In this document: in pieces, positions 12,255-64,000 of the stretch
Layout: every line of letters begins with the position of its first letter
Numbering within the stretch: position 1 is the first letter of the stretch
NCBI RefSeq assembly: GCF_000425125.1
Contig: NZ_AULE01000023.1
Span: forward strand, 1-64,000
Source of the DNA: Paenibacillus taiwanensis DSM 18679
GTDB lineage: Bacteria; Bacillota; Bacilli; Paenibacillales; Paenibacillaceae
Length of the DNA: 64,000 nucleotides
Reading direction: 5' to 3'
The notes under the pieces: model-generated
What the model was told of the DNA's origin: nothing
Database searches by the model: none
The model's input: only the letters and a program-made list of their open reading frames with translations
Translations under genes and position numbers: made by a program

Positions 12255-12313
12255 CTTTTTGTATATAATCAACACGTTTATTCTCTCGAGCTCACGTACA
12301 TACTTGGGACATA

Positions 12314-12343: not shown

Positions 12344-12365
12344 GGGATCAGGCAGGAGTTTAATT

Positions 12366-12704
12366 GTGCAAAAACAATACCGTCTAAAGGACCGTGCGGA
12401 TTTCAGCCGAGTCTATCGATATGGACGATCATGGGCGAACCATCAGCTTGTCCTATATGTGTTTCCGCGTCCAGCCGTAGACAGATTTCGTGTCGGGGTC
12501 TCCGCCAGCAAGAAAATAGGGAATGCAGTTGTCCGCAATAGAATGAGACGTGTCATTAAAGAAGTCGTTCGGCTTCATTCTGATCGTGTCATTAGCCATG
12601 TCGATCTTGTATTTATTGTGCGTAAAGGTGCAGTTGATATGGATTATGAGCAGCTTCGTAAGAGTGTGCTTCATGTTTGCCGAAAGGCCTCCGTATTAAA
12701 ATAA
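12366..12704 (+). CDS. rnpA: Ribonuclease P protein component
   Basis: A 112-residue basic protein that binds the catalytic RNase P RNA and assists 5' maturation of tRNAs. The RNR motif region is KKIGNAVVRNRMRRVIKE. The start is GTG at 12366, with AGGAG at 12354-12358 (7-nt spacing); upstream in-frame codons run into the terminator and the 10-bp repeats and are not translated. Follows rpmH as in nearly all bacteria. Confidence 0.96.
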   Translation: MQKQYRLKDRADFSRVYRYGRSWANHQLVLYVFPRPAVDRFRVGVSASKKIGNAVVRNRMRRVIKEVVRLHSDRVISHVDLVFIVRKGAVDMDYEQLRKSVLHVCRKASVLK

Positions 12705-12815
12705 GTTAATCTTGTGAAATACATATTAGCCACAGGGCTTGGACCGTTTCCTTTGAAACCTGAAATGTGATATATTTACTTTGGAATCGGATGGTTTTAG
12801 AGAGGAGTTTTGCTA

Positions 12816-14362: not shown

Positions 14363-14409
14363 ATTATGTTCATGTAGAATAGAACGTTGCTCACATAGAC
14401 GAGTATAAC

Positions 14410-14456
14410 GCAATGATTGTCTCTGTATTTTGGAGGCAGTCATTGCTTTTTTTCTA
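14410..14456 (+). terminator. Intrinsic terminator after jag
   Basis: GCAATGATTGTCTC pairs with GGAGGCAGTCATTGC and is followed by seven T residues. It ends the rnpA-yidC-jag transcript about 50 nt after jag. Confidence 0.85.
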
Positions 14457-14560
14457 AAAAGAACCGAATTTCTGATACAATTGAAAAGGCATATGAGCGA
14501 CGATTCACCATCCAAGCGATGAAAATCCGACTTATAGGCGCTTATACGGAGGGAAGAACG

Positions 14561-15937: not shown

Positions 15938-16027
15938 AGCACCAGCATATTGCTTAATTTTTAATTCAAATTGTAATATGATTAGGAATATGCTTTTGGA
16001 ACAGAAGAAAGCAAAGGAGGGAATTAG

Positions 16028-17935: not shown

Positions 17936-17964
17936 CGGAACTTATTTAGTGGGGAACGATATAT

Positions 17965-18687
17965 ATGGATAACGTGCAACAGCAATTTGCAGCTTGGTTG
18001 GAACCGTATGGTTTGTCCGTCTCGGAGAGACAATTTAACCAATTGGATCGTTACGTGGAAGTGCTTGCGGATTGGAACGAAAGAATGAATTTAACTGGCA
18101 TTACCGAGCGATCAGCTGTGTACGAGAAGCATTTTTATGATTCAGTAACACTCTCGTTTCATGTACCGATGGGTAATGTACAAAAGATGGCAGATATCGG
18201 TTCTGGTGCAGGGTTTCCTGGCATTCCGTTAAAAATTTTGTTTCCTCATCTTCAGCTAACGATTATTGACTCTTTAAATAAGCGGATTCAATTTTTGGAG
18301 CATTTAGCAGGTGCGTTAGAACTTGAGGGTGTTACTTGTGTACATGCGCGAGCTGAAGAAGCAGCTCGTAAGCCAGAACACCGTGATACATATGATCTAG
18401 TTACTGCGCGAGCAGTAGCCAGATTAAACGTATTGAATGAGTTCTGCTTGCCGTTTACGCGAAAAGGCGGGTTATTTGCAGCTATGAAGGGGTCTAACCC
18501 TACAGATGAGATCAAGGAAGCTGCACGCAGTATGCAAGTGCTGCAAGCCAAGCTGACGGGAGATTATAAGTTGATGCTGCCAGCTGAGCAGTCTGAACGT
18601 CATATTGTTGTCCTTGAGAAGACAGCTGCTACGCCAAAAGCTTATCCAAGGAAACCGGGAACTCCGATTAGGACGCCTATTATATAA
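17965..18687 (+). CDS. rsmG: 16S rRNA (guanine(527)-N(7))-methyltransferase RsmG
   Basis: A 240-residue SAM-dependent methyltransferase acting on G527 of 16S rRNA in the 530 loop. The SAM motif DIGSGAGFPGIPLKI lies around residues 76-90, and ARAEEA and VTARAVARLNVL follow as in the GidB family. Loss of this gene gives low-level streptomycin resistance in other bacteria. Last gene of the mnmE-mnmG-rsmG group; a terminator follows. Confidence 0.97.
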   Translation: MDNVQQQFAAWLEPYGLSVSERQFNQLDRYVEVLADWNERMNLTGITERSAVYEKHFYDSVTLSFHVPMGNVQKMADIGSGAGFPGIPLKILFPHLQLTIIDSLNKRIQFLEHLAGALELEGVTCVHARAEEAARKPEHRDTYDLVTARAVARLNVLNEFCLPFTRKGGLFAAMKGSNPTDEIKEAARSMQVLQAKLTGDYKLMLPAEQSERHIVVLEKTAATPKAYPRKPGTPIRTPII

Positions 18688-18711
18688 GCAGTACACATGG
18701 TTGTAGACCTG

Positions 18712-18760
18712 AACTTCTGTCCTTTTTTGTGCATGCAAAAGAGGGCAGAAGTTTTTTTTG
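18712..18760 (+). terminator. Intrinsic terminator after rsmG
   Basis: AACTTCTGTCC pairs with GGGCAGAAGTT around a loop that itself contains a GCATGC palindrome; eight T residues follow. Confidence 0.88.
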
Positions 18761-18974
18761 TATGGGCTGCCGCCTATCGAATTCAAATGGGAAGGTAACA
18801 ACTCTTTTTTATGCAATGTAATTATTTGTAATAATAAAATATGAGAAATGTTTGTGCTTATTATAAATTCTTTCCTAATAGCGATATATTTTTGACTTTA
18901 AAGGGATTTTTTCATGTGTAAGCGTCATATTTATGGTACGATAAGAAGATAAGCGCCGACCATAATTGGCGAAT

Positions 18975-18990
18975 TGTTCCACGTGAAACA
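18975..18990. other. parS: parS partition site (perfect)
   Basis: TGTTCCACGTGAAACA matches the ParB/Spo0J recognition consensus TGTTNCACGTGAAACA exactly. It lies between rsmG and noc, about 7 kb from oriC. Confidence 0.97.
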
Positions 18991-19490
18991 AGACGTAAGT
19001 CTACTGTGGTTTGTTTATATTTACCAGTGTAATATCATTTTTTTTGTAATCGTTAAATAAAGCAAATGATAGACATAAGAGAGTAGGATACGATGTTAGT
19101 TGAATACAATTGACTTCGGAATCGAGACCGATTCTATATCCGAAAGCTAATCAACTTAAGTTGATCGGGGCTAAATGAGGACAGGTACATAAGTTTTTAT
19201 GACACTAGTTACCAGAAGGCAGGAAAAAGGCAAGCGACTAGAGAATAATTATGTATCGAGGCATGCTTGCATGAAATCATTCAGCATGATGTTTGCATGG
19301 AGAAGATAGATGTCTCTTTTTAATGAGATAAAAGTTCTTCCTGTCACAACGCAACTTGTGTTGCTTCGTAATGGGTACTCTCCGAGGAAAACTGTCAACG
19401 TCTCGATGTTCACTTAGAATGAAAGGTCATCCTTGACAACTCATTTGACTTGCCTGGCATTACTATGAAGTTAGGTGGTATGACTTACAG
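18991..19490 (+). other. Gene-free, structured leader region upstream of noc
   Basis: About 500 bases without a supported gene. A two-tier hairpin (TTCGGA ... TCCGAA with AATCG/CGATT inside, about 19115-19145), a perfect 16-bp palindrome ATCAACTTAAGTTGAT (19150-19165) and a small GCAAC/GTTGC hairpin (about 19350-19365) suggest a structured untranslated leader. No T-box, known riboswitch core or T-run terminator was recognised. Confidence 0.4.
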
Positions 19491-20306
19491 ATGAAAGAAC
19501 AATTGTCCCGGTTATTTGGTTTTGCGGATCGTCCGGCACAGGATGAGGTCAAGCAGCTCCCTGTTGATGAGATCGTTATGAGTCCCTATCAGCCACGCAC
19601 CGTATTTGATGATGATCGGATTGAGGAATTAGCCCAGACGATAAAGACGCATGGTGTCATTCAACCTATCGTTGTTCGCCAACGTAATGGCAAATATGAA
19701 ATAATAGCAGGTGAGCGCCGATATCGTGCGGTGATGAAGCTTGGTATGGACACTATTCCAGGCATTATCCGTGAAATTAACGATTCGCAGGCGGCATCAA
19801 TTGCGCTTATTGAAAATTTGCAGCGTGAAGGGCTAACGTCTATTGAAGAAGCGATCGCCTACCAAAAGCTAATTGACTTGCATGACCTGACGCAGGAAAG
19901 TTTAGCGCAGCGTCTCGGTAAGAGCCAATCGACGATTGCAAACAAAATTCGTCTGTTGCAACTGCCCGATGAAGTGAAACAGGCGCTGATGGAACGTAAG
20001 GTGACGGAACGGCACGCAAGGGCATTACTCGGGCTGGAAACGCAAGCGCTGCAACTAAAGCTGCTGGAGGAAATTATTTCGAAAGAGCTTAACGTAAAAC
20101 AAACGGAAGCAAGAGTTGCATTTTATAAAGAAGTATCTAAATCCAAAAAATCCAAACGTGTATCCTTTACTAAGGATGTTCGTCTGGCTTTAAACACAAT
20201 TCGCCAATCTATAGATATGGTATCCGGTTCAGGGTTAGCCATTAAGACGGATGAACGGGATCATGAAGATCATTATGAGATTGTTATTCGTATTCCGAAA
20301 CGATAA
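19491..20306 (+). CDS. noc: Nucleoid occlusion protein Noc
   Basis: A 271-residue ParB paralogue that binds its own palindromes and recruits chromosomal DNA to the membrane, blocking division over the nucleoid. The N-terminus [14 protein letters not shown] fits the amphipathic membrane-targeting helix of Noc. The CTP-binding ParB core is marked by [12 protein letters not shown] and [12 protein letters not shown], and the helix-turn-helix by [24 protein letters not shown]. Position between rsmG and parA is diagnostic. AGGTGG lies 12 nt before the ATG. Confidence 0.95.
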
Positions 20307-20364
20307 AGAGGCGAAAGTGCTCAAACAGCTAAGTAAGTCCTCACAGATGTGCTTTGCCGGTGAA

Positions 20365-20398
20365 AGAAGCGGCTTCTTATGCCGCTCTTTTTTTCGAA
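20365..20398 (+). terminator. Intrinsic terminator after noc
   Basis: AAGCGGC-TTCTTAT-GCCGCT followed by seven T residues, about 60 nt after the noc stop; it separates noc from the parAB operon. Confidence 0.88.
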
Positions 20399-20557
20399 CA
20401 GTTTCAAATAGCGTGTATGCGGATACAAAGTGTTACGTCAAAGTGGAAGAAGGTTGCTTGAGGATAAAATAATTCCTTGAAATGTTTAGAATGAGCAAGG
20501 TTAAGCAGCGAAGAGCAGCCAGATGGACAAGTAGAAAGGGCATTGGGGTGAATAGGA

Positions 20558-51882: not shown

Positions 51883-52104
51883 CTTTGTGTGCAGGTGTAA
51901 CTCAGTGATCGATGAGGTCAGATTATGGATGGCAACGACGATAATGGGGGTACATTTTCAACGTTTAGAAGCGTTCCATTCATCCTTTTAGATGCTCCAC
52001 TCAACCCTGAAAAGGGCATAATTCAGCGGTATTATAAGGTTTGTAGCTGTGAAGCGGGTTAAGATGAGTACATCAAGAACGACGATACAGAGGAGATGTT
52101 TAAG

Positions 52105-53547
52105 TTGACCAGCATGCACACATTCACAACAAATTGGAAGCGCCGCACGATCCAGATTACGCTCGCATCTGTCCTATCTTTAGGTTCCATACTCTCATTT
52201 GGAACATCTATATATGCTCAAGGGGGAGAAGCAAGCAAGTCTGCCTCTAACACAACGATTCAATTAAAGGATACAACATCTGCCGCTCAGATGGAGCAGT
52301 GGAAGAAGTGGATGAAGACATACGCCTATTCGCTGGATACGATTCAGCCTGCCGTGATGAAGGATGGCAAGTTTGCGAAAGGCAGCTTCACGGACCTTGA
52401 TATGCTGAAGCCGTTATTAATGGACAAGCGTATCGTATACCTCGGTGAGAGCTCTCACGGGGCAGCCGAGTTTAATACGGCGAAGTCACGCCTCATTCAA
52501 TTTTTGCATGAAGAGCTGGGCTTTAATGTGGTTGCCTTTGAAACACCGATGGGTAATGCGGCTACTGGATACGGAAACGTAAAAAGCAAGACGCCAGAAC
52601 AGATGATGAAAAGCTCTGTTTTCCCGCAATGGTGGGCGCAAGAGACGCTGCCTCTATTTCAATATTTAAAAGATACACAAGCAACGGACAAGCCGCTGCA
52701 ATTAACGGGCGTGGACATGCAATCGATGGGTGCTTTTTTGTCCGGCGACTGGATGGGAGATGAGGAGTTAGCGAAGCGGTACATCGAGATGGATAAAAAG
52801 TTGGGTTCTTGGCTCGGTTCTGAAGATTTGGCTGCTTATCAGCAGACGAAGCCTGAATTATTAAAGGTGTACAAAGATGTAAAAAGCAAGGTGTCGACAC
52901 GGGAAAAACAATTAATTCAGCAGTATCCAGACAATCCACATATTGTTGCGCTCGTGAACCGCACATTGGACGATCGCATTCGAGTGGTAGAAACGTATTT
53001 GGAAATGAATATAAACGCTAATATAGCGGTTAAAAATGCTGATTATGCGCCGATGTTAAAGGCGTTTGAATGGCGGGATCAAGCGATGGCGGACAATCTG
53101 CTTTGGTTGGCTACCGAGGTTTATCCGACAGAAAAAATGATCGTGTGGGGACATAACTCCCATATTAGCAAAGCGCAATCGAAGATAGAGCAATCTTTCC
53201 TTCCGGTAAAAGCAATGGGCGAACGGATGCATGAGACGTTATTTGGACCTTACAGCTACTCACTTGGTTTGTATATGGGAAGTGGTCAGACAGCAGACAA
53301 CACGGGCAATCCAATCGATGTTGCGGCATTGCAGCCAAACTCAATCGAAGCGGTAATAAAGTCGGCTAATCGCCCGTATACGTTTGTGGACATGCGTCAT
53401 CAGTTGATGGTGCCGGGCAACTCGTGGATGACTCAGAAGCGTACCGGATACTATTGGGGCATGTACCCGGAAACGTTTGTACCGCGCGATCAATATGACG
53501 GCATTTTGTATATCGATAAAGTGAAGCCCTCGAATTACATCGAGTAG
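52105..53547 (+). CDS. Secreted erythromycin esterase-like protein (copy 1)
   Basis: 480 residues with a signal peptide (hydrophobic core ITLASVLSLGSILSFG, likely cleavage near IYAQG) and an erythromycin-esterase fold: LGESSHGAAEF with the Glu/His motif, VVAFETPMGNA, TGVDMQ, and MIVWGHNSHISKA. This superfamily includes EreA/EreB, which open the macrolide lactone, but many members have unknown substrates. Secretion is unusual for macrolide inactivation. The TTG at 52105 is preferred (AGAGGAG 9 nt upstream); ATG at 52096 abuts that site. A paralogue follows in tandem. Confidence 0.88.
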   Translation: MTSMHTFTTNWKRRTIQITLASVLSLGSILSFGTSIYAQGGEASKSASNTTIQLKDTTSAAQMEQWKKWMKTYAYSLDTIQPAVMKDGKFAKGSFTDLDMLKPLLMDKRIVYLGESSHGAAEFNTAKSRLIQFLHEELGFNVVAFETPMGNAATGYGNVKSKTPEQMMKSSVFPQWWAQETLPLFQYLKDTQATDKPLQLTGVDMQSMGAFLSGDWMGDEELAKRYIEMDKKLGSWLGSEDLAAYQQTKPELLKVYKDVKSKVSTREKQLIQQYPDNPHIVALVNRTLDDRIRVVETYLEMNINANIAVKNADYAPMLKAFEWRDQAMADNLLWLATEVYPTEKMIVWGHNSHISKAQSKIEQSFLPVKAMGERMHETLFGPYSYSLGLYMGSGQTADNTGNPIDVAALQPNSIEAVIKSANRPYTFVDMRHQLMVPGNSWMTQKRTGYYWGMYPETFVPRDQYDGILYIDKVKPSNYIE

Positions 53548-53743
53548 GAGAGTAACGGTCGTTGTGGGAGAGTGACGGATCAGAAGCACAGACGATCTAA
53601 AGAGATGAAAAGAGATAAAATGAGATGGAAAGTATAGTATATCCTACTTCTTTTTTGCAGGGTGGTTACATGATTGCTTGGCTGAATAGATAAACGCGTG
53701 CTTATTAATAAGCCACTACATATATGACTTGGGGGATGTTCGG

Positions 53744-55234
53744 ATGAACACACAATTACTAACTTGGAAAAAGCGAGGCTTGTCTTTATTCCTTGCTTCG
53801 ATTATGACACTGGGATCGTTATTATCCTATACAACGACTGTTTATGGAGCGGCTGTTGAGAGCAAGGAAGCTGTGATAACCGAACATACGGTGAACAATG
53901 GCGCACAAGCACCACAAACAAATGACTTGAAGGTAGCAGATCAGGATGGAGCACGAACCAGCACAGCAACTCGTCAACAATGGAAACAGTGGATGAAGAG
54001 CAATGCTATTGCATTAAAATCTATCAAGCCTGAAGTTACAAAGAATGCAGTCGTCAAGGCAGACCAATTTAAAGACTTGGCGCCATTAAAGACGCTGCTA
54101 AAGGATAAACGTATCGTTTACTTGGGCGAAAGTTCTCACGGTGCAGCCGAGTACAACTCGGTGAAGACGCGACTCATTCAATATATGCATCAAGAATTGG
54201 GCTTTAATGTAGTCGCATTTGAGACGAATCTCGGCAATGCTGCTTCTGCTTACGGGAACGTGAAATCCAAGCAGCCCGTACAAACGATGAAGGATTCGAT
54301 CTTCCGCATCTGGCAGGCGGAAGAGACGGTACCTTTGTTCCAATATATTCAGGACACGCAGAAGACCAAGAAGCCGCTGGCGTTGGCAGGGTTCGATATG
54401 CAGCCGCAAGGGCCATTATTTTCAGGCGAATGGATGGGAGATGCCAACCTGGCCAAGCGTTTCCAGGATGCCGAGCTGGAGTTGGACCGCTGGGAGCAAA
54501 GCGAAGATCTAGCTGCTTATGCGAAAGCAAAGCCGAAGCTATTAAAGGTGTACCAACAAGTGCGCCAGATTGCGCCTAAACGTGCCGATGCGCTGCGCCG
54601 TCAATTTCCGGATAATCCACATATCGTGAAACTGGTCGAGCGTGCACTGGATAACCGTATCCAAGTGGTGAAGGAATACATGGAGACGACGATTGCTTCA
54701 ACTGGATTTATGTTAGGCAAATCGATGGACTATCAATCTGTTATCAAGTCCTCCGAATATCGTGACCGCATGATGGCGGACAACTTGGTCTGGCTGGCAA
54801 CGAATGTGTACCCCAATGAGAAAATGATCGTGTGGGCGCACAACGGTCACATTTCCAAGGCGTATTCCAAGGAGTTAAACGCGCTGCCGCGTGTGCATAT
54901 GGGCGAGCTGATGCAAAAGACAAAGTTCAAAGATCAAAGCTACGTGATGGGTCTGTATATGGGGGGCGGAAAAAATGCCCACGTGACAGGCGAGATTTTC
55001 GACGTGCTGCCGCCAATGGCGCACTCTATCGAAGAAGTGATGAAGGGGGCCGGACACCGCTACTCCTTTGTAGATATGCGATATAAGCCGGAGACAGTAG
55101 GCAACTCGTGGATGAGACAGCAGATGGTTTCTTACTACACTGGTGTGTCTACTGTAAGCAGCATACCATTTGAGCAGTATGACGGTATATTGTATATCGA
55201 TCAGGTGTCGGCGCCCAAGTATTTTAAGAAATAG
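53744..55234 (+). CDS. Secreted erythromycin esterase-like protein (copy 2)
   Basis: 496 residues, a tandem paralogue of the preceding gene with the same architecture: signal peptide (LFLASIMTLGSLLSY core), LGESSHGAAEY, VVAFETNLGNA, AGFDMQ, MIVWAHNGHISKA and a matching C-terminal DGILYIDQ. ATG at 53744 follows GGGGGA. About 190 bp separates the copies and contains no terminator, so co-transcription is possible. Divergence is clear (conserved in the catalytic blocks, variable elsewhere), so the duplication is not recent. Confidence 0.88.
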   Translation: MNTQLLTWKKRGLSLFLASIMTLGSLLSYTTTVYGAAVESKEAVITEHTVNNGAQAPQTNDLKVADQDGARTSTATRQQWKQWMKSNAIALKSIKPEVTKNAVVKADQFKDLAPLKTLLKDKRIVYLGESSHGAAEYNSVKTRLIQYMHQELGFNVVAFETNLGNAASAYGNVKSKQPVQTMKDSIFRIWQAEETVPLFQYIQDTQKTKKPLALAGFDMQPQGPLFSGEWMGDANLAKRFQDAELELDRWEQSEDLAAYAKAKPKLLKVYQQVRQIAPKRADALRRQFPDNPHIVKLVERALDNRIQVVKEYMETTIASTGFMLGKSMDYQSVIKSSEYRDRMMADNLVWLATNVYPNEKMIVWAHNGHISKAYSKELNALPRVHMGELMQKTKFKDQSYVMGLYMGGGKNAHVTGEIFDVLPPMAHSIEEVMKGAGHRYSFVDMRYKPETVGNSWMRQQMVSYYTGVSTVSSIPFEQYDGILYIDQVSAPKYFKK

Positions 55235-55620: not shown

Positions 55621-55687
55621 TAGGTATGAAGGTTATTTGCCCGTATTATTTTATTTGTGAGTTGTAATCGAAACGGGGATAGTGATT

Positions 55688-56167
55688 ATGTTTATTCAAT
55701 TGATCAGTGTAGGCAAGTTAAAAGAAAAATACTTGGTGCAGGGCATTGCGGAGTATAGCAAACGTCTTGCGCCTTATGTGAAGTTCCAGGTGATCGAAGT
55801 GCCTGACGAGAAGGCACCTGAAAATATGAGCGACGCTGAGCTGTTGCAGGTGCAGGAGCGGGAAGGCGAGCGCATTCTTGCGCACGTGAAGCCGGAGGCG
55901 CATGTGGTGGCGCTGGCGATCGACGGCCAGCTCTGGTCGAGCGAAGACTTGGCGGCGCATATGGACAAGCTCGGCACGTATGGGACGAGCCACGTCGTGT
56001 ATATTATCGGCGGCTCGGTAGGCCTGTCGCCAGCCGTGATGCGCCGCGCGCAGTCGAAGCTCTCGTTCGGGCGCATGACGCTGCCGCACCAATTGATGCG
56101 CTTGGTGCTGGTGGAGCAGATTTATCGCGCGGTGAAGATAAATCGGGGAGAACCATATCATAAGTAG
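55688..56167 (+). CDS. rlmH: 23S rRNA (pseudouridine(1915)-N(3))-methyltransferase RlmH
   Basis: A 159-residue SPOUT methyltransferase acting on pseudouridine 1915 in helix 69 of 23S rRNA. The SAM-binding trefoil knot includes [34 protein letters not shown], shown in part, and the C-terminus [18 protein letters not shown] is canonical. ATG at 55688 gives the normal length. Its last codons are the chromosomal integration site of SCC elements in staphylococci (orfX); the same terminal codons are repeated twice downstream here. Confidence 0.97.
56150..56167. other. att-like site 1: 3' end of rlmH
   Basis: GAACCATATCATAAGTAG encodes E-P-Y-H-K-stop, the last codons of rlmH. It corresponds to the SCC attachment site and would be the left junction of the island. 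Confidence 0.7.
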
Positions 56168-56269
56168 GGCGAAAAATAGGGGGTGCCTGGCACTTCCTTT
56201 TTGCTGATATTGTTCTCTCATTAAAAGAAATCTTCGCGTTTTTTTTAATAAGGCCAACGAACAAAATGC

Positions 56270-57718
56270 TTATTTTCGGTGCGAGGCATTATATCGGTGA
56301 GTGTATACAAACCATGTAATGCTTGCTGTTAATAATGCCGACGAAATCAAAGCTGTAAGAACACTATATGTTTGCCAAATAAGTATCGCTGACCAATCTA
56401 ATGCATAGAACATAATACACTGGACAATCGTAGCAATCAGCAAAATAGCTGTTACGATTATTCGCTTTTTTGTTATTGGCTGCCGCTCATTCGCTTTCCT
56501 TCTGCGTAATCCTAAGAGAAAGAGCAGAACAGCCAATAGGCAGAGAATAATTGTGGTAGATGACAAAATGATGTCCAAAAGCTGTGTGCCGCTTATTCTA
56601 TATGATTGCGTCAGATTGCCGTCTAATATATCTTTAACTTTTAGTACCATGCTTCTATTGATATTTGCGCCGTTGGTCAGCAAGCAGATGGCTGTTCGTT
56701 CATTTAGCAGTATGGCCATTTCGGTCCCGAAATTAGGATTTCCCCCTGGGTGCTCTATAATCGTTTGGTTGGCGTTTACCGACCAGCCCGCCGCATAATA
56801 CATTTCATTGACGGGCGGAACAGACATATCACCCTGATGTGATTTTTCGATAACCGTATGAAATATTTCAGGTATGTCCTGCACAATACCCATCTGTATG
56901 CCCATCCAACGCGCCATATCTTTTGTACAAGAAATGATGTAGCCTGCGGGTTTATTTCCGGAATAATCCGGCGCGTTATATGGAGTTGTCATAAAAAAGG
57001 AAGAACGGTAGCCCTGTGCCAACTGTCCGGTGGCTTGGGCATCTTCTTTGTAAACATACGTCTGGTGAAGACCTAACGGCTGAAATACCTGTTCCCTCAT
57101 AAAGTCTTCATAGCTTTGTCCCGACACAATCTCAATAACCAAACCCAATACGTCATAATTAACGGTTCCATAGTTATACTGTTCACCGGGAGGGAACGCC
57201 AACTCAGCATCTACCAGCATTTCCACAGTCTTTTGCAGCAAATCTGGCGTATTGCCTTGTGGTATATTTTGAGTATGCCTAGCATTTGTTAGGCCGCTAG
57301 TATGGTGAAGAAAGTTATTGAGTGTAATACTTTGCATATCAACGGGTTTCCCCTGATACTTTAATGTAAACCAAGGCAAATATTTCTGGATAGGGTCTGA
57401 CATTGACAGCAGTCCTTGTTCTTCCATCAGCAGAATACCCATGCCGGTAAAAGCTTTACTTACCGAAGCCAACTCATATAGAGTATTTTCACTTGCCGAC
57501 AGTCCCTTTTCACGATCTGCGTACCCGGAAGAAAAGTAGAGCACTTCATTGTTCGCAAGTATTGAGATTGACATACCCGGTATACCTGATATACGGCTTG
57601 CATCATCCAACAATGTTTGTATTGAATCAGATTGCGAATCTGATAATGCATAACTAGGTGTTGCGAATCCGGTGAACAGTATAAGTAATGCAATCATAAA
57701 GACAATAATTTTTTTCAT
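56270..57718 (-). CDS. Serine beta-lactamase-like/penicillin-binding protein with membrane tail
   Basis: 482 residues: signal peptide (IIVFMIALLILFTGFATPSYA), a class C beta-lactamase/D-peptidase fold with SxxK in ELASVSKAFTG (around residue 91), YxN in the YGTVNYD block and HxG in EHPGGNP, then three or four C-terminal membrane segments after about residue 380. This matches the Pbp4/FmtA/EstB-like 'serine hydrolase' family; activity may be on D-alanyl esters, peptides or beta-lactams and cannot be told from sequence. GGAGAG precedes the ATG. Opposite strand to rlmH; first gene in the putative island. Confidence 0.92.
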   Translation of the reverse strand: MKKIIVFMIALLILFTGFATPSYALSDSQSDSIQTLLDDASRISGIPGMSISILANNEVLYFSSGYADREKGLSASENTLYELASVSKAFTGMGILLMEEQGLLSMSDPIQKYLPWFTLKYQGKPVDMQSITLNNFLHHTSGLTNARHTQNIPQGNTPDLLQKTVEMLVDAELAFPPGEQYNYGTVNYDVLGLVIEIVSGQSYEDFMREQVFQPLGLHQTYVYKEDAQATGQLAQGYRSSFFMTTPYNAPDYSGNKPAGYIISCTKDMARWMGIQMGIVQDIPEIFHTVIEKSHQGDMSVPPVNEMYYAAGWSVNANQTIIEHPGGNPNFGTEMAILLNERTAICLLTNGANINRSMVLKVKDILDGNLTQSYRISGTQLLDIILSSTTIILCLLAVLLFLLGLRRRKANERQPITKKRIIVTAILLIATIVQCIMFYALDWSAILIWQTYSVLTALISSALLTASITWFVYTHRYNASHRK

Positions 57719-57916
57719 AGTCTCTCCATTCCGAAAAACTCCCGTACGGGAAAATATAAATAATCCGCAGTACGCCTTATTCCCCTAAAGTGTAATAAGA
57801 TATATATTATGAAGCTTATTAGCAAAATCTTGTTGTATGTGAAGAATCATACAATATAAAAAATTAGATTGCTATGATAATCTTCTACTTACTACGAACT
57901 ATTCTGCTAGGAACAC

Positions 57917-57956
57917 AAAAAGCCCCCTCTGCTTCATTAGCGGAAGGGGCAATAGT
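57917..57956 (-). terminator. Minus-strand terminator without an intact gene upstream
   Basis: On the minus strand, GCCCCTTCCGC-TAATGAA-GCAGAGGGGGC is followed by TTTTTGTG. The only reading frame it could serve is the broken one at 58122-58274, suggesting a lost gene. Confidence 0.75.
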
Positions 57957-58121
57957 TTAGAAGTATTCCTCAATTTTCTCATCAAAGGTTAGCTCGATCT
58001 CTTTGTGATGCACTTATTTACTGCTACAGTCAGATAGAAACACTGCATTTAGTCAAACTTGACAGTTCAGGTAGCAGTGTCATTATCAACAGAACAACCA
58101 GAACACAAGCCATAAGCTGTG

Positions 58122-58274
58122 TTACCTTTTTACACATTCTTTTTCTACTTCATAGGGTCTTTCTCCGATAAAATTCATTCTTGCTTCAAACAATCCCTCT
58201 ACTATTTCATCCAGATGGGCCAATAGAACGTGCTTTTCCTTATGATTGACACAGATAAAGTAAAAGCGGTAAAG
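58122..58274 (-). pseudogene. Remnant of a minus-strand gene, unidentified
   Basis: An open frame of 50 codons between two stops without a credible start, with protein-like composition (HVLLAHLDEIVEGLFEARMN ... ending EKECVKR). It is followed by a strong minus-strand terminator. Likely the 3' end of a truncated gene; family not recognised. The rest of the gap 57719-58311 shows nothing else. Confidence 0.4.
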
Positions 58275-58311
58275 TTATCCTATTCTAGCCATGTTATTGG
58301 AGGATCATTTC

Positions 58312-58638
58312 ATGAAAAAACTAAGTTCTGATTTTGAATATTTAAAAGATATGTATATTGATGGATACTTCCCTAATTTTCTTGTGGATAAAGTCAAAGC
58401 TGAACTAGTTAAAGTTGTTGAATTTTTGGAACAAGGTAATCAAGATATCGAGGAAATTCAATCAAAGCTTAATTCCGCCATCAATGCAATCAATGATCTT
58501 GCAGAAGAGTTTGACGAAAATGACAGCGAAATTGAAACAGTTGGCAGAGAATCAATTGCACAAACTGTTGAAGATATTTTAGCCTTTTTTGGTATCGAAA
58601 TAGATACAGAAGTAGCCATTCGTGAACGTGATTGGTAG
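58312..58638 (+). CDS. DUF5713 family protein
   Basis: A 108-residue, acidic, helical protein: LKDMYIDGYFPNFLVDKVKAE, then alternating helices and DSEIETVGRESIAQTVEDIL at the C-terminus. It fits the DUF5713 family, small cytoplasmic proteins of accessory regions with unknown function; some similar small families serve as immunity proteins, which is only an inference here. ATG at 58312 has GGAGGA upstream. AT-rich compared with the core genes. Confidence 0.75.
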   Translation: MKKLSSDFEYLKDMYIDGYFPNFLVDKVKAELVKVVEFLEQGNQDIEEIQSKLNSAINAINDLAEEFDENDSEIETVGRESIAQTVEDILAFFGIEIDTEVAIRERDW

Positions 58639-58711
58639 TTTGTTAGGGGAATATATTTTTATTTCATCATCATTATACGCCAACATATACCTTAATATTG
58701 GTGAAGAGCGT

Positions 58712-58935
58712 ATGTGAACATGGAGTGCTGAGGTTTTTGGTAATGACACCTCGTGTGAGATCAAGGAATATTTCTATGAGCAGTACAATCGGGGTTCGGA
58801 AGTTACTCAAATTGTAAGTATGTACACCCAACGCTTACTATCTACAGTTGGCATTGGAGTTCAGTACAATCTTGCTTATCCTTAGTTCGCAATCTCTATG
58901 AAATAGGCATTGCTACACTGGAAGCAAAATGAAGG
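58712..58935 (+). pseudogene. Broken MGTWS-type (DUF4259-like) gene
   Basis: The frame ATG-TGA-ACA-TGG-AGT-GCT... translates as M-stop-T-W-S-A-E-V-F-G-N-D-T-S-C-E-I-K-E-Y. Relatives start M-G-T-W-x, so codon 2 appears to have changed from GGA to TGA. The frame then stays open to a stop at 58883-58885, after which the reading continues in another frame (VRNLYEIGIATLEAK, ending about 58935). At least one nonsense change and one frameshift, hence inactive. The family identification is tentative. Confidence 0.6.
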
Positions 58936-59044
58936 CCTATAGAGTGAAGAAGTTTCTAAGGAAACGATTACTAGATTATACGGCTTTTTGTCCTCAACAA
59001 GTAGCTGTATATATTAGTAACTTAAGATATAAAGGGGATATATT

Positions 59045-59533
59045 ATGAATATTGTTGTTGCGGAACATTGGAATCTTGAAAAGCATGAACTGCCCGGCGT
59101 TAATAGCATCATCTTTCCAAATGGCGCTGTAACTATCTTAAGTTGTTACAGCTTATATAACCCCAACACAAATGAAAGTAAACTTTATTGCTCTCCCTTG
59201 TGTGACACAACCATTGAAAGCATATCAAAGTATAATGTTGAATGTTGGACGATCGTTGATGAATGGGTCAGTATTGATTATCAAGACGGGAAAATCTGTG
59301 GCGGTGATGGTCAAATGGGAAATGAAGGATTTATTGCTTGTACGGATGCTGAAGACCGTTTGGTATGGGGAATATTTTTTGAAAATTCAAACCCTATAAA
59401 AAGCTTAGAAATTAAAGATAAAATCTTAATCGCTATTAATGAGCATAACGAATTACAAATTGAAATCAACTTAGAAAACCTCACCCAAATTAAAATGATG
59501 CCCATAAAATCCAAAAACGAGCCAACTAATTGA
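59045..59533 (+). CDS. Hypothetical protein, unknown (possible immunity-type)
   Basis: 162 residues, no signal or membrane segment. The composition (ECWTIVDEWVSIDYQDGKICGGDGQMGNEGF in part, aromatic and acidic residues, several Cys) and a predicted mostly beta structure suggest a compact cytoplasmic domain. No family recognised. GGGGAT lies before the ATG. AT-rich like DUF5713; both flank a broken small gene, a pattern seen in clusters of immunity genes, though no toxin is present. Confidence 0.72.
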   Translation: MNIVVAEHWNLEKHELPGVNSIIFPNGAVTILSCYSLYNPNTNESKLYCSPLCDTTIESISKYNVECWTIVDEWVSIDYQDGKICGGDGQMGNEGFIACTDAEDRLVWGIFFENSNPIKSLEIKDKILIAINEHNELQIEINLENLTQIKMMPIKSKNEPTN

Positions 59534-59640
59534 TGAAACAAATACCAAGCACGAAATTTCCTAATATAGATTACTCACCTGGCTCCTGCGATTTTCTCGA
59601 TCGATGGATGCCCCTCGTTTACCACTTAGTAATACAAGGT

Positions 59641-59658
59641 GAACCGTACCATAAGTAA
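59641..59658. other. att-like site 2 (middle)
   Basis: GAACCGTACCATAAGTAA reads E-P-Y-H-K-stop, identical in coding to the rlmH terminus; the preceding codon GGT also preserves the Gly. It differs from the rlmH site at three bases, all third codon positions. The region 59534-59800 holds this site and no gene. Confidence 0.65.
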
Positions 59659-59800
59659 CGGTAAGTTTTTCGGATAATCCCGCAGCAGGCTTGGAACGGA
59701 GCCTTGAAGGACATAGGTTGAGGCGGGGTCGCGAGTAGCAGCGAAGATGGGGAAAACGGACTTTTGCGCTTTTTGGAATTACAACAATGGAGGGCTATAA

Positions 59801-60124
59801 ATGAAGTACTTTTACGGAGTATTATCTTTTTTGGGACTCGTTTTGCCCTATTCGCAATTCATCCCTTGGGTCGTGCACAACGGCCTCGATTTGACTCTAC
59901 TATTTAAAGCCATAACCAGTTCGCGTATCGGAGCTTTTGCATGGATGGATGTTTTAGTTACCGCGATCGTGCTTATGGGATTCATTCTGTTAGAAGGCAC
60001 CAGAAAGAGAATGAAATATTTATGGCTGCCGATTGCAGGTACGCTACTGGTAGGTCCTTCACTGGGTCTTCCCTTGTTTTTGTTTCTTCGACAATTACAC
60101 TTGGAGAAAAACATTCTAAAATAA
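59801..60124 (+). CDS. DUF2834 family membrane protein
   Basis: A 107-residue protein with three membrane segments (YGVLSFLGLVLPYSQFIPWVV, WMDVLVTAIVLMGFILLEG, YLWLPIAGTLLVGPSLGLPLFLFL), the pattern of DUF2834. Function unknown. GGAGGG lies 6 nt upstream of the ATG. Confidence 0.85.
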   Translation: MKYFYGVLSFLGLVLPYSQFIPWVVHNGLDLTLLFKAITSSRIGAFAWMDVLVTAIVLMGFILLEGTRKRMKYLWLPIAGTLLVGPSLGLPLFLFLRQLHLEKNILK

Positions 60125-60126
60125 CA

Positions 60127-60276
60127 TCAAAGGTGGTTTCTTTCGGCTTGGTCTTTCAGCCATTGTTCGACCTCCTCGTCATGCGCTTTGGCCTGCGTGA
60201 AGAACGTCATCATGTAGTCGTTATCGTACAGCAACGCTATTTTGTACTCATGGAGTCCTTCGTCTATGTCAGTTGT
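60127..60276 (-). pseudogene. C-terminal fragment of an unidentified minus-strand gene
   Basis: A minus-strand frame coding for about 49 residues (DEGLHEYKIALLYDNDYMMT ... HDEEVEQWLKDQAERNHL) whose N-terminal continuation is the antisense of the uridylate kinase sequence. The protein-like part ends where kinase similarity begins, so this looks like a gene cut by a deletion or recombination. Family unknown. Confidence 0.45.
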
Positions 60277-60895
60277 GAATCTAGGTGTTGAGGTATCATT
60301 AGTCATAGGTGGAGGGAATATTTTTCGCGGTAATATGGCGGAAAGCTGGGGAATAGAAAGAGCAGAAGCTGACAACATCGGGACGCTTGCTACTGTTATT
60401 AATAGCTTGATGCTTCGAGGAGTTCTTAAAGCCAAAACAGACAAAGAAGTTCGTGTGATGACAGCAATACCTATTACTTCAGTTGCAGAACCATATATCA
60501 GACTAAGAGCAGTTCACCATCTGGAAAAGGGCTACATAGTAATTTTTGCAGGAGGAAACGGGCAACCCTACGTTACAACGGATTACCCTTCCGTTCAAAG
60601 GGCAATCGAAGTTAATTGTGAAGCTTTGTTAGTAGCAAAACAAGGCGTAGATGGTGTTCTCAATGCAGACCCTAAGTTCGACAAAGAAGCAAGAAAGTTC
60701 AGGTCCCTTCACTACAACGATGTTTTAAAATATAACTTGAAGGTAATGGATCAATCAGCTTTCATCTTAGCTAGAGACTACAATCTGCCAATGCATGTGT
60801 TTAATTTTGACAAGCCGGGCTCGATGAAAGAAATTTGTGAAGGGAAAGTTAATGGTACAATAATTAGTGGTGAGTCAATTTTGGAGTTGGAATGA
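60242..60895 (+). pseudogene. pyrH: Uridylate kinase homologue lacking its N-terminus
   Basis: From about residue 11 it aligns with PyrH: VVNLGVEVSLVIGGGNIFRG, YVTTDYPSVQRAIE (in place of FTTDTAAALRA), AKQGVDGVLNADPK, VMDQSAFILARD. UMP kinases start about 40 residues earlier with the KLSGEAL motif that binds phosphate; this part is absent and the upstream frame is unrelated. It is therefore probably an inactive second copy; the essential pyrH would lie elsewhere near tsf and frr. The TTG start at 60242 has no clear binding site. Confidence 0.7.
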
Positions 60896-60937
60896 GTTGA
60901 AAATTATGAGGGAGTACAACAGCGCTCCCTCTTTTTC

Positions 60938-61240
60938 GTGATACTTGCCGTTACTGACAGCGCGGAGAACCGTATCATTAGTGACATTGTTCATTGTTCC
61001 AGACAGTTCTCTCAATTAACCGGAATACATTGCAGGGGGATATCTGAGGACTCGAAGGATTTGCGGGTTCTGGATGCTGCCATAAAGTATGGACCCTCAT
61101 CACAAGAGGCGTTTACACGAGCATTTAACAAGGCTGTTCAGCTCATCCCTGCAACCTCCTCAAAAGCTTCCCTACCTATTCAGTTGGCTATTCGTCAGGA
61201 GCTAGCAAGGAACTTTGACCCCCAACGGATGGGAATATAA
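60938..61240 (+). pseudogene. AraC-type regulator fragment
   Basis: A 100-codon frame with a recognisable piece of an AraC/XylS helix-turn-helix: RQFSQLTGIH and VLDAAIKYGPSSQEAFTRAFNKA, but the connecting region is scrambled and the domain end is unusual. No ligand domain and no good start. Most likely the decayed remnant of a regulator, possibly of a neighbouring resistance gene. Confidence 0.6.
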
Positions 61241-61355
61241 ATGAATTGAAGTTGGGTGTAAACAGTGTTACTCTAACAACGGTAAACTCAAAAGCTATGC
61301 TCTACGATACGTTCACTAATAGTCACAAATTTAGTTATCAAGAAAGGTAATACTT

Positions 61356-63098
61356 ATGATAAAAGTTGAAAACTTATCCTTCTCATTCCCACAAAAAGAA
61401 CTATATACAAACATTTCATTTACGTTAGAAGAGGCACAGCATTGCGCTTTTATAGGAACAAGTGGCAGTGGTAAAAGTACACTGATCGATATACTGATGG
61501 ATCCAGAAAAATATTTGTTCGAGGGCAAGTTAGAGATAGATCCAACCTGCACAATTGGGTATGTAAGTCAGTTCTCCCAACTAGACAGAACAAAAGAAAC
61601 AACCGTTTTTGAATATATTGGAGAACAATTTATTGAAATACAAAATGAAATACAATCTCTTTGTACTGAAATGGAAACATCATCGGATATTGAGCCGTTA
61701 CTCGAAAAGTACCAATTAGCTTTAGACGCGTTTAATGCAATTGGCGGCGATAATTTTGAAAGCAACATTAATAAAAAACTAAATCTAGCAAACCTCATGA
61801 AGCTAAAAGATGTTAGGGTATCCGAGCTGAGTGGTGGAGAGTTCAAGCTTATTCAAGTGATGAAGGAGATGCTTAGTAGTCCCGACTTGATGATTATGGA
61901 TGAGCCCGATGTATTTTTAGATTTTGAAAACCTAAATGCGCTTAAAAATCTTATTAATTCTCACAAAGGCATCCTGCTAGTTGTTACCCACAACCGATAT
62001 TTATTAAATCATTGTTTCAACAAAATTATTCACCTTGAAAACATGGAGATCCAGGAGTTTGATGGGCGATATATGGAATATAATTTCTCATTACTTCAGA
62101 CAAAGATTGAGTTGCAAGAAATCGCAGTCGCTGAACAAGAAGAAATTGAGAGATACGATAACATTATTGATAATCTTAGAGCGATCGCAACTATTAATTC
62201 AGAAGCATCTAGGGGGAGAGCGTTAAAAGCTAGAGTTAGATTTCAAGAGAGATTGGAAGCGCGTAGAATTAAAGCACCATTTGTTGATATTAAGCAACCG
62301 AATATTCGTTTTGATATGGATCATGAGATTGAAGAAGACACGATTGTTGTAAATGTTAGAAATTATAGTGTTGCCTTTGATGAGCTGCTGTTACACAATG
62401 TTAGCTTTGAGATAAAATCTACGGATAAAGTAGCCATTATCGGTCCAAACGGTACGGGAAAAACGACTTTACTCCGAGATATCTTTAACAATAATCATGA
62501 TTCAATTGAAATAAATGCTGAAGTGAAAATGGCTTATCTATCTCAGCTTCAAGGCGAAGTGTTAAAGGATTCTAATACAATACTAGAAGAATTCATTGAT
62601 GCTGGGTTTAGCACTTATGATGAGGTTAGATCGTATATATCACACTATGGCTTTGAAGGAGAAATCGTTAATCAGAAGATAGCATCTTTATCTGGTGGAG
62701 AAAAAAATATACTCCAATTAGCTAAAGTTTCTGCTAGTAAGGCAAACGTGTTGCTTCTTGACGAACCTACAAGCCATTTAGACACCTATACACAAATTGC
62801 GCTGGAAAAAGCCATTGAAGCTTATAAAGGTGCGATTCTCATGATATCTCATGATTTCTATTCTGTTGTAAATGGTATGGATTATGTATTAATCATTGAC
62901 GATAAGACGATTAGAAAAATGAGCATGCGAAAATTTAGACAAATGATTTATGCTAACCATTTTGATAAAGATTATTTAGAAGCGGAACAAAACAAAAAAG
63001 CAGTTGAAATGAAAATAGAATTGGCTTTAAAAAATACTGATTTTGAACTTGCAAAAGTATTAGTTGATGAGCTAGAAGAACTGATTAAGTTGCTTTAA
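61356..63098 (+). CDS. ABC-F family ATPase, probable ribosome protection protein
   Basis: 580 residues with two ABC ATPase domains and no membrane part. Domain 1: Walker A GTSGSGKSTL, signature LSGGEFKL, Walker B LMIMDEPD. An interdomain linker follows (about 225-300). Domain 2: GPNGTGKTTL, LSGGEKNIL, VLLLDEPTSHLD. This is the ABC-F layout; members that protect ribosomes from lincosamides, pleuromutilins, streptogramins or macrolides have long linkers, whereas housekeeping EttA/Uup types differ. The exact class is not determined. AAAGG lies before the ATG. AT-rich, in the second putative cassette. Confidence 0.88.
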   Translation: MIKVENLSFSFPQKELYTNISFTLEEAQHCAFIGTSGSGKSTLIDILMDPEKYLFEGKLEIDPTCTIGYVSQFSQLDRTKETTVFEYIGEQFIEIQNEIQSLCTEMETSSDIEPLLEKYQLALDAFNAIGGDNFESNINKKLNLANLMKLKDVRVSELSGGEFKLIQVMKEMLSSPDLMIMDEPDVFLDFENLNALKNLINSHKGILLVVTHNRYLLNHCFNKIIHLENMEIQEFDGRYMEYNFSLLQTKIELQEIAVAEQEEIERYDNIIDNLRAIATINSEASRGRALKARVRFQERLEARRIKAPFVDIKQPNIRFDMDHEIEEDTIVVNVRNYSVAFDELLLHNVSFEIKSTDKVAIIGPNGTGKTTLLRDIFNNNHDSIEINAEVKMAYLSQLQGEVLKDSNTILEEFIDAGFSTYDEVRSYISHYGFEGEIVNQKIASLSGGEKNILQLAKVSASKANVLLLDEPTSHLDTYTQIALEKAIEAYKGAILMISHDFYSVVNGMDYVLIIDDKTIRKMSMRKFRQMIYANHFDKDYLEAEQNKKAVEMKIELALKNTDFELAKVLVDELEELIKLL

Positions 63099-63140
63099 AT
63101 TACGATCCTCTGATTTAAGGAAGTCCCCACAGCAATTAAA

Positions 63141-63175
63141 AGAGAGGGCACCCGATCCGGGTGCCTTCTCTTTCA
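63141..63175 (+). terminator. Intrinsic terminator after the ABC-F gene
   Basis: AGAGGGCACCCG-ATC-CGGGTGCCTTCT followed by CTTTC, about 45 nt after the stop. Confidence 0.85.
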
Positions 63176-63193
63176 CTCAATAGATGATATGCT

Positions 63194-63211
63194 GAACGGT
63201 ATCACAAGTAG
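63194..63211. other. att-like site 3 (right end)
   Basis: GAACGGTATCACAAGTAG reads E-R-Y-H-K-stop. It differs from rlmH's site at three of 18 bases. The following AGCGGCAAGTTTTT-type stretch also resembles that after site 2 (25 of 30 bases alike over 59641-59670 and 63194-63223). Confidence 0.6.
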
Positions 63212-63269: not shown

Positions 63270-63566
63270 TCAAGTTGATTTTTCACTTTTTTGACCTCTG
63301 ATTTTCTCATGATTCAGCAGCCATTCTTTGCGTGCGACTCCTCCGCCGTACCCGCCGAGTTTGCCAGAGGTGTTAATTACGCGATGACAGGGAATGACGA
63401 TCGCTAGTTGATTGGCACCATTCGCTTGTGCTACCGCACGATATGCGGTGGGCTTACCAAGCGCCAGTGCGATATCGGCGTAAGAACGGGTTTCGCCCGG
63501 TACCCCTTGGTAACGACGTCGGTAGCCGAAAATCAGGCACCTATTTTGTAATAACACCATGCACAC
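63270..63566 (-). pseudogene. Truncated methylated-DNA-protein-cysteine methyltransferase
   Basis: A 98-codon frame whose C-terminal 80 residues match the Ogt/MGMT catalytic domain: GETRSYADIALALGKPTAYRAVA, active-site cysteine in IPCHRVI, and GGYGGGVARKEWLLNHE. The first 18 residues do not match and the usual N-terminal domain is missing, so it is truncated at about 63510 near the right end of the putative island. Possibly still folded but unlikely to be a normal gene. Confidence 0.7.
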
Positions 63567-63582: not shown

Positions 63583-64000
63583 TCACACTCCAGCCGGATA
63601 ATGCATAAAAGGATTGTACTCGTCTTTTTTTGATTCTATTGGAGAAGGGTGAGGATCAAACGCCCCTAAGAAATCGCAACCATGCTTCTGGGTAGTGCGA
63701 TGCAGGCTGCTGCCTTTGCGTCCCTTTTCAGACTACCCAAATTGCGTTTCACTGCATTCAATAATGCCGTTGAGTTGATGATACATTGACCCCATAAAAG
63801 CAATAATTTATATGAAAAAGTATTTTATTTACAGGAATTTTCCACCTAATTGCCGAATTATGACTCTACATCATTCAGATTGCAACGGATAGCAAAGTCA
63901 ATTAGGAAAGGAGCGTAACTTGACCATATAAAAGTTGAAGTATCGATCAACAGACATTGTTTCGCGTATTTTGAATAACATAATGATTGGTGCAACAGCC
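63583..64000 (-). other. Right-end region with a short unidentified reading-frame remnant
   Basis: On the minus strand a frame of 50 codons (63583-63735) ends DEYNPFMHYPAGV-stop just upstream of the Ogt fragment; it has no start and may be a gene remnant. From 63741 to the window end no gene, RNA or repeat was recognised. Confidence 0.35.

Follow-up and report, generated by a model that had tools for sequence, protein, structure and literature searches.

The window analysed here, a stretch of 64,000 nucleotides from Paenibacillus taiwanensis DSM 18679 (contig NZ_AULE01000023.1, positions 1 to 64,000), contains the gene rlmH, which encodes the 23S rRNA pseudouridine-1915 methyltransferase, and behind it a segment in which the end of that gene is repeated. 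A preliminary description of this DNA had reported three related 18-mers, one at the end of rlmH and two downstream, and we found all three, at 56150–56167, 59641–59658 and 63194–63211, on the + strand and within 7 kb. It had missed a fourth, degenerate copy at 60967–60984. We interpret the segment, with a probability of about 0.9, as a composite, recombinase-less stack of cassettes that resembles the staphylococcal cassette chromosome (SCC) and would have been inserted stepwise at the 3' end of rlmH. The closest relative found is Paenibacillus sp. ACRRX (genome G003), whose rlmH is 96.6% identical in DNA and 99% identical in protein; G011 in the list below is a further genome of the comparison. 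The gene, the sites and the intervals between them are as follows.

55682–56167, + strand: rlmH, the putative insertion target (PF02590, 189.6 bits; NF000985, 240.7 bits)
56150–56167, + strand: site 1, GAACCATATCATAAGTAG, rlmH-end attachment site, whose left arm is rlmH coding DNA
56168–58061: module A, rlmH-proximal cassette with its right end lost (shared-segment comparison)
58056–58066: A/B junction, without a site (comparison with G011 and G003)
58062–59640: module B (shared-segment comparison)
59641–59658, + strand: site 2, GAACCGTACCATAAGTAA, with right arm CGGTAAGTTTTT (18-mer search, weight matrix, arm comparison)
59641–60966: cassette X, recombinase-less (interior and end matches to intact elements)
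60967–60984, + strand: site 3, degenerate, GAACCGTATCATTAGTGA (matrix score 24.5 against 2.8 for the next best)
60967–63193: cassette C (60943–63114 is 94.5% identical to 4772–6932 of G003)
63194–63211, + strand: site 4, GAACGGTATCACAAGTAG, with right arm CGGCAAGTTTTT (18-mer search, weight matrix, arm comparison)

The rlmH reading frame has a GTG at 55682 and an ATG at 55688, and both family matches are over their cut-offs. Perfect matches to GARCNNTAYCAYAARTRR on the two strands of the 5,247,653-base genome number three, which are exactly the sites at 56150, 59641 and 63194, and 100 dinucleotide shuffles of the window gave no perfect match. Allowing one mismatch adds 14 genome matches, including site 3; when two are allowed, the motif ceases to be rare, with 161 matches against 112 for the pattern read backwards. 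A weight matrix derived from 40 inner sites of relatives gave the four window sites scores of 47.1, 43.7, 31.2 and 24.5 in a scan of 55.7–95.6 kb, and the runner-up, at 74712, was dismissed as noise. Site 3 occupies the equivalent place to a site of ACRRX (4796), ahead of the same cassette. The four sites on the + strand form direct repeats of the integration site, module A being without its right-hand one, and cassette X has inverted ends, CGGTAAGT after site 2 and ACTTGCCG before site 3, which are complementary at 7 of 8 positions. An Rfam scan of 54–64 kb produced nothing that reached the gathering scores.

The motif was surveyed, at up to one mismatch, in 80 named rlmH loci, nearly all from Paenibacillus and covering 10 kb per side where the contig permits, and in a second set of 39 rlmH loci from P. 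taiwanensis and related genomes (3.8–20 kb each); 14 loci common to both sets were dropped from the 80 to give a combined set of 105. The results showed 91 downstream copies in the orientation of rlmH in the 80 loci, one reversed downstream copy and none upstream in 792 kb, with an inner copy present in 54 loci. The 39-locus set yielded 58 copies behind rlmH in its orientation and none reversed, and 26 of its loci had at least one inner copy. G036 was the sole locus of the combined set without a site even at rlmH. Together with the genome search and the shuffles, this survey speaks against a wide chance occurrence of the 18-mer, which would have refuted the earlier reading.

Taken as a set, the 92 inner sites have a left arm, approximately taaAatTTgcCgtTA.AgacgtTAcGGT, that mirrors the right arm about a central GA (CGGT-GA-ACCG), the GA being fixed by the search pattern so that its constancy is no result. 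At the 104 rlmH sites the left arm is coding sequence and the palindromic arms are absent. Because the set has arms that rlmH lacks, the inner copies are attachment sites and not duplicated gene ends. It had been argued from the third-position differences that each copy was once a functional rlmH terminus; the right half may have been, and the left arm is unlike rlmH coding DNA. Serine integrases that join a chromosomal half-site to the palindromic site of an element give sites of such a shape, and the arms seen here would fit a large serine recombinase (LSR) acting at rlmH in this way.

Cassettes are shared between loci, and segments common to different species are 90–97% identical where the DNA of rlmH is 70–82% identical. 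Among all shared segments, 25 of 1092 ends lie at a site in both loci; when the inner sites were redrawn 200 times, the mean was 0.45 and the maximum 5. In a stricter set, with identity at least 15 points above that of rlmH, 7 of 154 ends lie at a site in both genomes (mean 0.145 and maximum 3 for redrawn sites). Segment ends within 30 bp of a recognised site number 50 of 1216, compared with a random mean of 11.3 and a maximum of 23. Orientation was kept in 304 of 304 shared segments (42 families), which mix horizontal with possibly vertical ones, and in all 77 segments (15 families) of the stricter set; these counts come from related genomes, which lack independence, and rlmH gives only an approximate standard of comparison. 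Some segments start at rlmH in one genome and lie within the stack in another, and 13 of 25 of these begin no more than 8 bp from an inner site, a count that comprises four cassette groups, has module A in eight cases and comes with no random control. The sites account for part of the mosaic, not for all of it.

The rlmH-proximal interval appears to combine two modules, which carry three genes.

56270–57718, − strand: serine beta-lactamase-family protein, 482 amino acids, seemingly full-length (PF00144, 210 bits)
58291–58638, + strand: DUF5713 protein, seemingly full-length (PF18977, 126.6 bits)
59045–59533, + strand: 162-amino-acid protein (counterparts at 94–95% behind rlmH in G003, G016 and G002)

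Module A is 94–95% identical to the DNA directly behind rlmH in G001 and G011, whose rlmH DNA is only 81–82% identical (for G011, 95% against 82%). These two genomes have module A in common up to a far site, and by eye the sequences diverge right after the 18-mer. The module begins at an inner site in P. lacisoli (L143, position 2353) and in P. ihumii (L181, position 3641). Because ACRRX has a relative of the module A gene (88%) on another contig, the copy in P. taiwanensis was probably not simply inherited. The beta-lactamase-family protein has a match at E≤1e-120 in 19 of 196 relatives. In G006 (L083), at about 500–2150 from rlmH, a 1.6-kb insert parts module A from its site, which indicates that other insertions also occur inside cassettes.

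Module B (58061–59609) is 96.8% identical to 3088–4638 of G003, which lies between the sites at 2937 and 4796 of that genome, and occurs in part in G016 (96.2%) and G002 (93.9%). Its 162-amino-acid protein has no Pfam or NCBIfam match at E≤0.001. At the junction of the modules, A in G011 continues for about another 183 bp before its site is reached, and B begins about 151 bp past a site in G003. Since these stretches, which flank a site in the relatives, are missing here, the junction probably reflects a deletion that removed a site.

Cassette X contains two genes and a remnant.

59801–60124, + strand: DUF2834 protein (PF11196, 96 bits)
60142–60291, − strand: remnant of a small open reading frame (ORF) (71% over 52 amino acids to a small ORF of P. 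chibensis, E 1.6e-20)
60263–60895, + strand: pyrH-like (UMP kinase) gene without its first ~32 residues (TIGR02075, positions 33–233)

The interior of cassette X at 60138–60270 matches that of an intact element of P. chibensis (L187) at 85%, and 60138–60246 matches the interior of the P. timonensis element (L159) at 90%; short matches to this piece also occur in G002 and G029. The remnant is the tail of a small ORF that in both elements lies upstream of a presumed helicase gene, and the DUF2834 and 5'-truncated pyrH-like genes occupy the place of the recombinase and the presumed helicase. The latter, a 510-amino-acid protein situated in P. timonensis between the recombinase and the small ORF, is presumed to be a helicase from its position and a P-loop-like sequence seen by eye; it has no Pfam or NCBIfam match at E≤0.01 and matches no PDB sequence at E≤0.001. 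Judged by these similarities, cassette X probably derives from a ccr-like element, internally rearranged and without a recombinase, and it is likely, if not proven, that it is an internally deleted element. Its ends match those of the L187 element (91% over 33 bp and 94% over 35 bp), and its right end also matches the end of the P. timonensis element. These ends do not prove that cassette X descends from the P. chibensis element, because the same arm types match sites in roughly 15–20 other loci, and the specific evidence is therefore the interior remnant only. The reading of the whole segment does not rest on cassette X.

The DUF2834 DNA is 93.6% identical over 346 bp to that of G041, a genome of another family whose rlmH DNA is at 71%. 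L201 and L141 have, behind rlmH, copies of the pyrH-like gene with a longer N-terminus, and a full-length pyrH match lies elsewhere in the P. taiwanensis genome (C1:530613). L141 is titled Neobacillus mesonae, yet its rlmH (84% to that of P. taiwanensis) and its cassettes are Paenibacillus-like, and the label may be wrong.

Two ORFs were recognised in cassette C.

60938–61240, + strand: ORF with a weak AraC-family (RobA/RamA) match over about 35 residues (E 2e-4), probably a gene fragment
61356–63098, + strand: ABC-F ATPase, 580 amino acids, seemingly full-length (NF000355, 300 bits against a cut-off of 380)

The counterpart of cassette C in G003 lies between sites 4796 and 6967, so that the cassette is bounded by sites in both genomes. 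G025 and P. selenitireducens (L146) have DNA that matches the cassette at 95.5–95.7% identity; there the match stops just past a site on its right side, but no site coincides with its left end. In G025 the figure is 95.5% for the cassette and 76% for rlmH DNA. For the ORF at 60938–61240, a tblastn comparison with the other 104 loci gave no hit that covered half of the ORF at E≤1e-15. The ABC-F protein resembles ribosome-protecting ABC-F proteins but scores below the NCBIfam cut-off, and its gene has a strong match in 112 of 196 relatives. Of the 92 relatives in which it could be placed relative to rlmH, 46 have the gene 0.2–48 kb downstream, invariably in the same orientation, and the other 46 have it at a different place or on a different contig, in no case within 60 kb upstream; this count omits 20 of the 112, namely 19 without an rlmH place among the matches listed and G211, which has a partial ABC-F match at a contig end and its rlmH on another contig. 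The copies in G025 and G065 are 96% identical in protein, against 83–84% for rlmH, and look too similar for old synteny. Of the accessory and decayed genes that the preliminary description had seen in the segment, pyrH and an ogt gene right of site 4 are indeed fragments, and the beta-lactamase-family, DUF5713 and ABC-F proteins look full-length.

The absence of ccr genes, which had been noted earlier, is in agreement with the lack of any PF07508 match on the window contig. At E≤1e-70 the L159 LSR finds no match in the P. taiwanensis genome, whose two other LSRs gave 83.6 bits and no listed match with the CcrB model. In relatives, intact rlmH-linked elements with LSRs are present in L159, L187, L134 and L166. 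The full-length rlmH-linked LSRs score 398 (L159), 382 (L134) and 438 and 319 bits (both L166) with the CcrB model and 256–356 bits with the CcrC model, all four below the 900-bit cut-off set for staphylococcal Ccr (NCBIfam). Ten LSRs located elsewhere in such genomes, one of them a 243-amino-acid fragment, all stayed at or below 182 bits with CcrB. The presence of these CcrB/CcrC-like recombinases in intact cassettes beside rlmH supports the composite SCC-like reading that had been proposed from the sequence. At E≤1e-70, 31 of 197 family genomes have an L159-type LSR; for 22 of them an rlmH place is among the matches listed, and in 20 of these the LSR lies within 25 kb downstream of rlmH; the other 9 of the 31 have no such place among the matches listed, and positions were compared by eye.

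A local profile built from 12 seeds detected LSR homology behind rlmH in 13 of the 80 named loci, in 12 of them on the strand opposite to rlmH, and in 5 of the 39 loci of the second set, all on the opposite strand (two are among the 13). With the P. timonensis LSR as query, homology appeared in 21 of the 105 loci, with 29 of 30 pieces on the opposite strand, and 15 of the 21 loci had only pieces shorter than 300 residues. Directly behind its rlmH, ACRRX carries a broken LSR, and one of the pieces scores 57.5 bits with CcrB. No LSR homology was found in 116 of the 131 closed intervals of the 105 loci, whose median length is 2.9 kb; this tally covers 10–20 kb per locus with one LSR query and thus misses large or divergent elements, and LSR-containing intervals were counted from the start positions of the homology. 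A family-wide PF07508 search, used as a lead only, gave at least 145 of 197 genomes among the matches listed.

Paired adjacent LSR genes, reminiscent of ccrA-ccrB, lie within a few kb of rlmH in several family genomes, among them G169, G120, G127, G153, G180 and G157. The L134 locus (Paenibacillus sp. TCA20) has at 10594–20477 the start of an island behind rlmH with a Ccr-like LSR, a RadC-like protein and, by eye, a long SNF2-helicase-like protein, and may be a defence island. G178, G216, G130, G181 and G187 have three to six rlmH matches instead of one, and the extra copies might be carried by elements.

From the arrangement described above we infer that a CcrB/CcrC-like LSR from intact elements would join the end of rlmH to a palindromic site on a cassette in circular form, with the crossover probably at the GA dinucleotide in the palindrome centre. 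Every insertion would replace the last rlmH codons with synonymous, cassette-borne ones and leave a second, directly repeated site at the far end, where further cassettes could stack one after another. The remaining sites, at 56150, 59641, 60967 and 63194, would then bound the cassettes A+B, X and C, where A+B would be two modules fused by deletion, X probably the leftover of an element that once had a recombinase, and C the cassette of the ABC-F gene. Deletions would strip recombinase genes and sometimes sites, and cargo between sites could still be moved by a later recombinase. Insertion of elements at the rlmH end, the direct repeat and the stacking are well supported by anatomy and comparison. 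Because its own recombinase is gone, the stack would now be mobile only through a supplied recombinase or homologous recombination.

Several observations weigh against this reading. The majority of segment ends lie away from recognised sites, and 12 of the 25 segments that change position begin more than 60 bp from any site, two of them at 61–62 bp. Inner sites are absent from 26 of the 80 named loci in the DNA covered (usually 10 kb; less than 3.4 kb in two), and among the 26 is L166, the published composite of P. pinistramenti, where a search with the motif gave no inner site within 10 kb. Only the consensus is palindromic; arm-by-arm matching in single sites is no higher than the column make-up predicts. 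P. taiwanensis and the 18 other sampled genomes of its genus all lack an L159-type LSR at E≤1e-70, and neither a circle nor an empty site was seen in P. taiwanensis itself. Modules B and C are no closer to ACRRX than rlmH is, and since the rlmH DNA of ACRRX is already 96.6% identical, their presence in both genomes may reflect inheritance. The placement of the ABC-F gene may also be partly old synteny in part of the family. Finally, when P. taiwanensis is compared with ACRRX at 59641–60967, the left arm of site 3, not that of site 2, matches the ACRRX site; a single clean cassette insertion is not claimed here, because the arms do not fit one event.

We rejected a chance likeness of the three 18-mers, the probability of which is negligible: the motif is short and common enough at two mismatches, but it has only three perfect matches in the genome and none in the shuffles, and the survey found 91 forward copies against a single reversed one. 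It is also very improbable that the segment is an ancestral gene order beside rlmH in which the motif was kept for some other reason, such as a transcription or replication signal. Such an order would suit the 46 of 92 placed relatives with the ABC-F gene downstream in the same orientation, but not the 46 that have it elsewhere or on another contig. We rejected it because near relatives differ in order, spacing and cargo, with no single conserved order in the compared loci, and the inner sites have palindromic arms and bound several cassettes. In ACRRX in particular the first cassette is another one, the ABC-F cassette is followed by an additional interval, and the 19.7 kb examined contain no blastn match to the cargo of 59641–60967; the order at 56–63 kb is thus not ancestral, as the earlier reading requires. 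Homologous recombination between stacks, with the sites as old scars, could explain why most segment ends lie away from sites, with common cassettes acting as anchors. We consider it unlikely as the main route of spread, because identity jumps inside the 18-mer from 81–82% in rlmH to 94–95% in module A, because 13 of the 25 segments that change position start at most 8 bp from a site, and because rlmH itself is not carried along.

If the segment is an SCC-like stack, its present state can be seen in two ways. The insertions may be old and now only decaying, a view to which we give even odds; the degenerate site 3, the A/B fusion, the truncated pyrH and ogt genes and the broken recombinase in the sister species are consistent with it, whereas ACRRX differs by whole intervals despite its 96.6% rlmH DNA identity and module A is far closer to its copies in other species than rlmH is. 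Alternatively, and with odds slightly short of even, the Ccr-like recombinases of visiting elements would still move cargo-only cassettes between species in trans. The large share of closed intervals without LSR homology (116 of 131, median 2.9 kb), the interspecies segments at 90–97% identity beside rlmH DNA at 70–82%, the element-type ends that cassette X retains without a recombinase, and the full-length LSRs adjoining rlmH elsewhere in the family all point this way. On the other side, no circle, excision or transfer was seen, the 19 genomes of the genus have no strong LSR match, the window itself has a decayed site and fused modules, and the limits of the interval tally (10–20 kb per locus, one LSR query) mean that large or divergent elements were missed.

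SCC elements are defined by insertion at the 3' end of rlmH, direct and inverted repeats, ccr genes, a staphylococcal or macrococcal host, and excision and integration by Ccr. The stack has the insertion at the rlmH 3' end, the direct site repeats and the inverted repeats at ends; it has neither ccr recombinase genes nor such a host, and for these reasons it is not classed as SCC. It works like SCC without being SCC by definition. Its likeness to SCC and SCCmec also includes degenerate inverted end repeats, stacking and variable cargo, and it differs in its Paenibacillus-type host, in the gene end E-P-Y-H-K-stop where SCC has E-A-Y-H-K-stop, in its short cassettes (median closed interval 2.9 kb in the 105 loci), and in that no mec or ccr was found in the window stack.

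Staphylococcal sites are directly repeated 18-bp sequences in which the rlmH codons are kept, as here, and SCCmecC2865 of Staphylococcus sciuri is a composite SCCmec with degenerate sites and without described ccr genes (PMC8407400). An SCC element carrying drc genes (PMC12033364), a ccrDE island outside rlmH (PMC10581047) and ccrAB genes in enterococci, which are Ccr homologues outside staphylococci (PMC3068701), have been described. In several Bacillota, tandem islands with one or two LSRs lie downstream of rlmH and resemble the stack in their arrangement and in their repeats of the rlmH end. One composite of this kind lies in P. pinistramenti (L166), so the view that such islands are unknown outside staphylococci is not supported (PMC10061031). 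Those islands were chosen for a polymerase–single-stranded-DNA-binding-protein–helicase core (PMC10061031); in the window stack no core of this kind was recognised, only the remnant of the small ORF that neighbours the presumed helicase gene in P. chibensis and P. timonensis. Pfam and NCBIfam searches of eight scanned ORFs of 56.2–63.6 kb recognised no polymerase–binding-protein pair, helicase or recombinase. SCC-like rlmH islands, including a composite one in Paenibacillus, are thus already published; no survey of rlmH cassette stacks in Paenibacillus was found in the open-licence literature, and what is new here is how widespread, small and often recombinase-free the stacks are.

In integron arrays, numerous small cassettes without a recombinase follow a single anchor site, all in one orientation. 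Stacks of the type in the window are similar, with small recombinase-less cassettes in a fixed orientation at one anchor, and differ in that the sites are of the serine-recombinase type, the anchor is the end of an rRNA methylase gene, and no resident recombinase was found here (tyrosine integrases and attC sites were not searched for). We tentatively suggest that the rlmH end in Paenibacillaceae may anchor a shared pool of small, fixed-orientation, cargo-only cassettes, mostly without a recombinase, with ends of the type found in Ccr-like elements, and inserted, stacked and reshuffled between species in trans by such elements when they visit: an integron-like but serine-recombinase-run system, and the sort of reservoir from which SCC may have come. 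SCC elements spread methicillin resistance, and the origin of Ccr recombinases and cassettes and the capture of cargo are open questions in the field. The Paenibacillus stacks offer a natural series from the complete element to bare cargo between two sites, in which trans-mobilisation and cargo capture become directly testable in laboratory hosts. They also call for caution in annotation, as genes behind rlmH in Paenibacillus are often foreign.

One further gene was recognised right of site 4, the ogt fragment mentioned above.

63270–63566, − strand: ogt fragment (O6-methylguanine-DNA methyltransferase; PF01035, 95.5 bits, 98 amino acids)

The right arm of site 4 is of the cassette type, so the DNA to its right was probably once a cassette as well. 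Placing the right end of the island at 63211, as had been done, is not supported, and no recognised end-marking site occurs up to 95.6 kb. Genes right of 63.2 kb mostly have no match in the other 104 loci or are common to ACRRX alone; a gene at 83.0–84.2 kb is found behind rlmH in G018, G008 and G011. The DNA from 63712 to 64000, and on through contig C4 of P. taiwanensis to about 70185, is common almost only to ACRRX (77–91%), where it lies between two sites; no far site for it was recognised in the P. taiwanensis genome. By eye it encodes a reductase, a binding lipoprotein and an AraC protein that includes a binding-protein part. Upstream of rlmH, tandem erythromycin-esterase-like genes occupy 52096–53547 and 53729–55234 on the + strand; the second has a PF05139 match, and the first is similar by eye.

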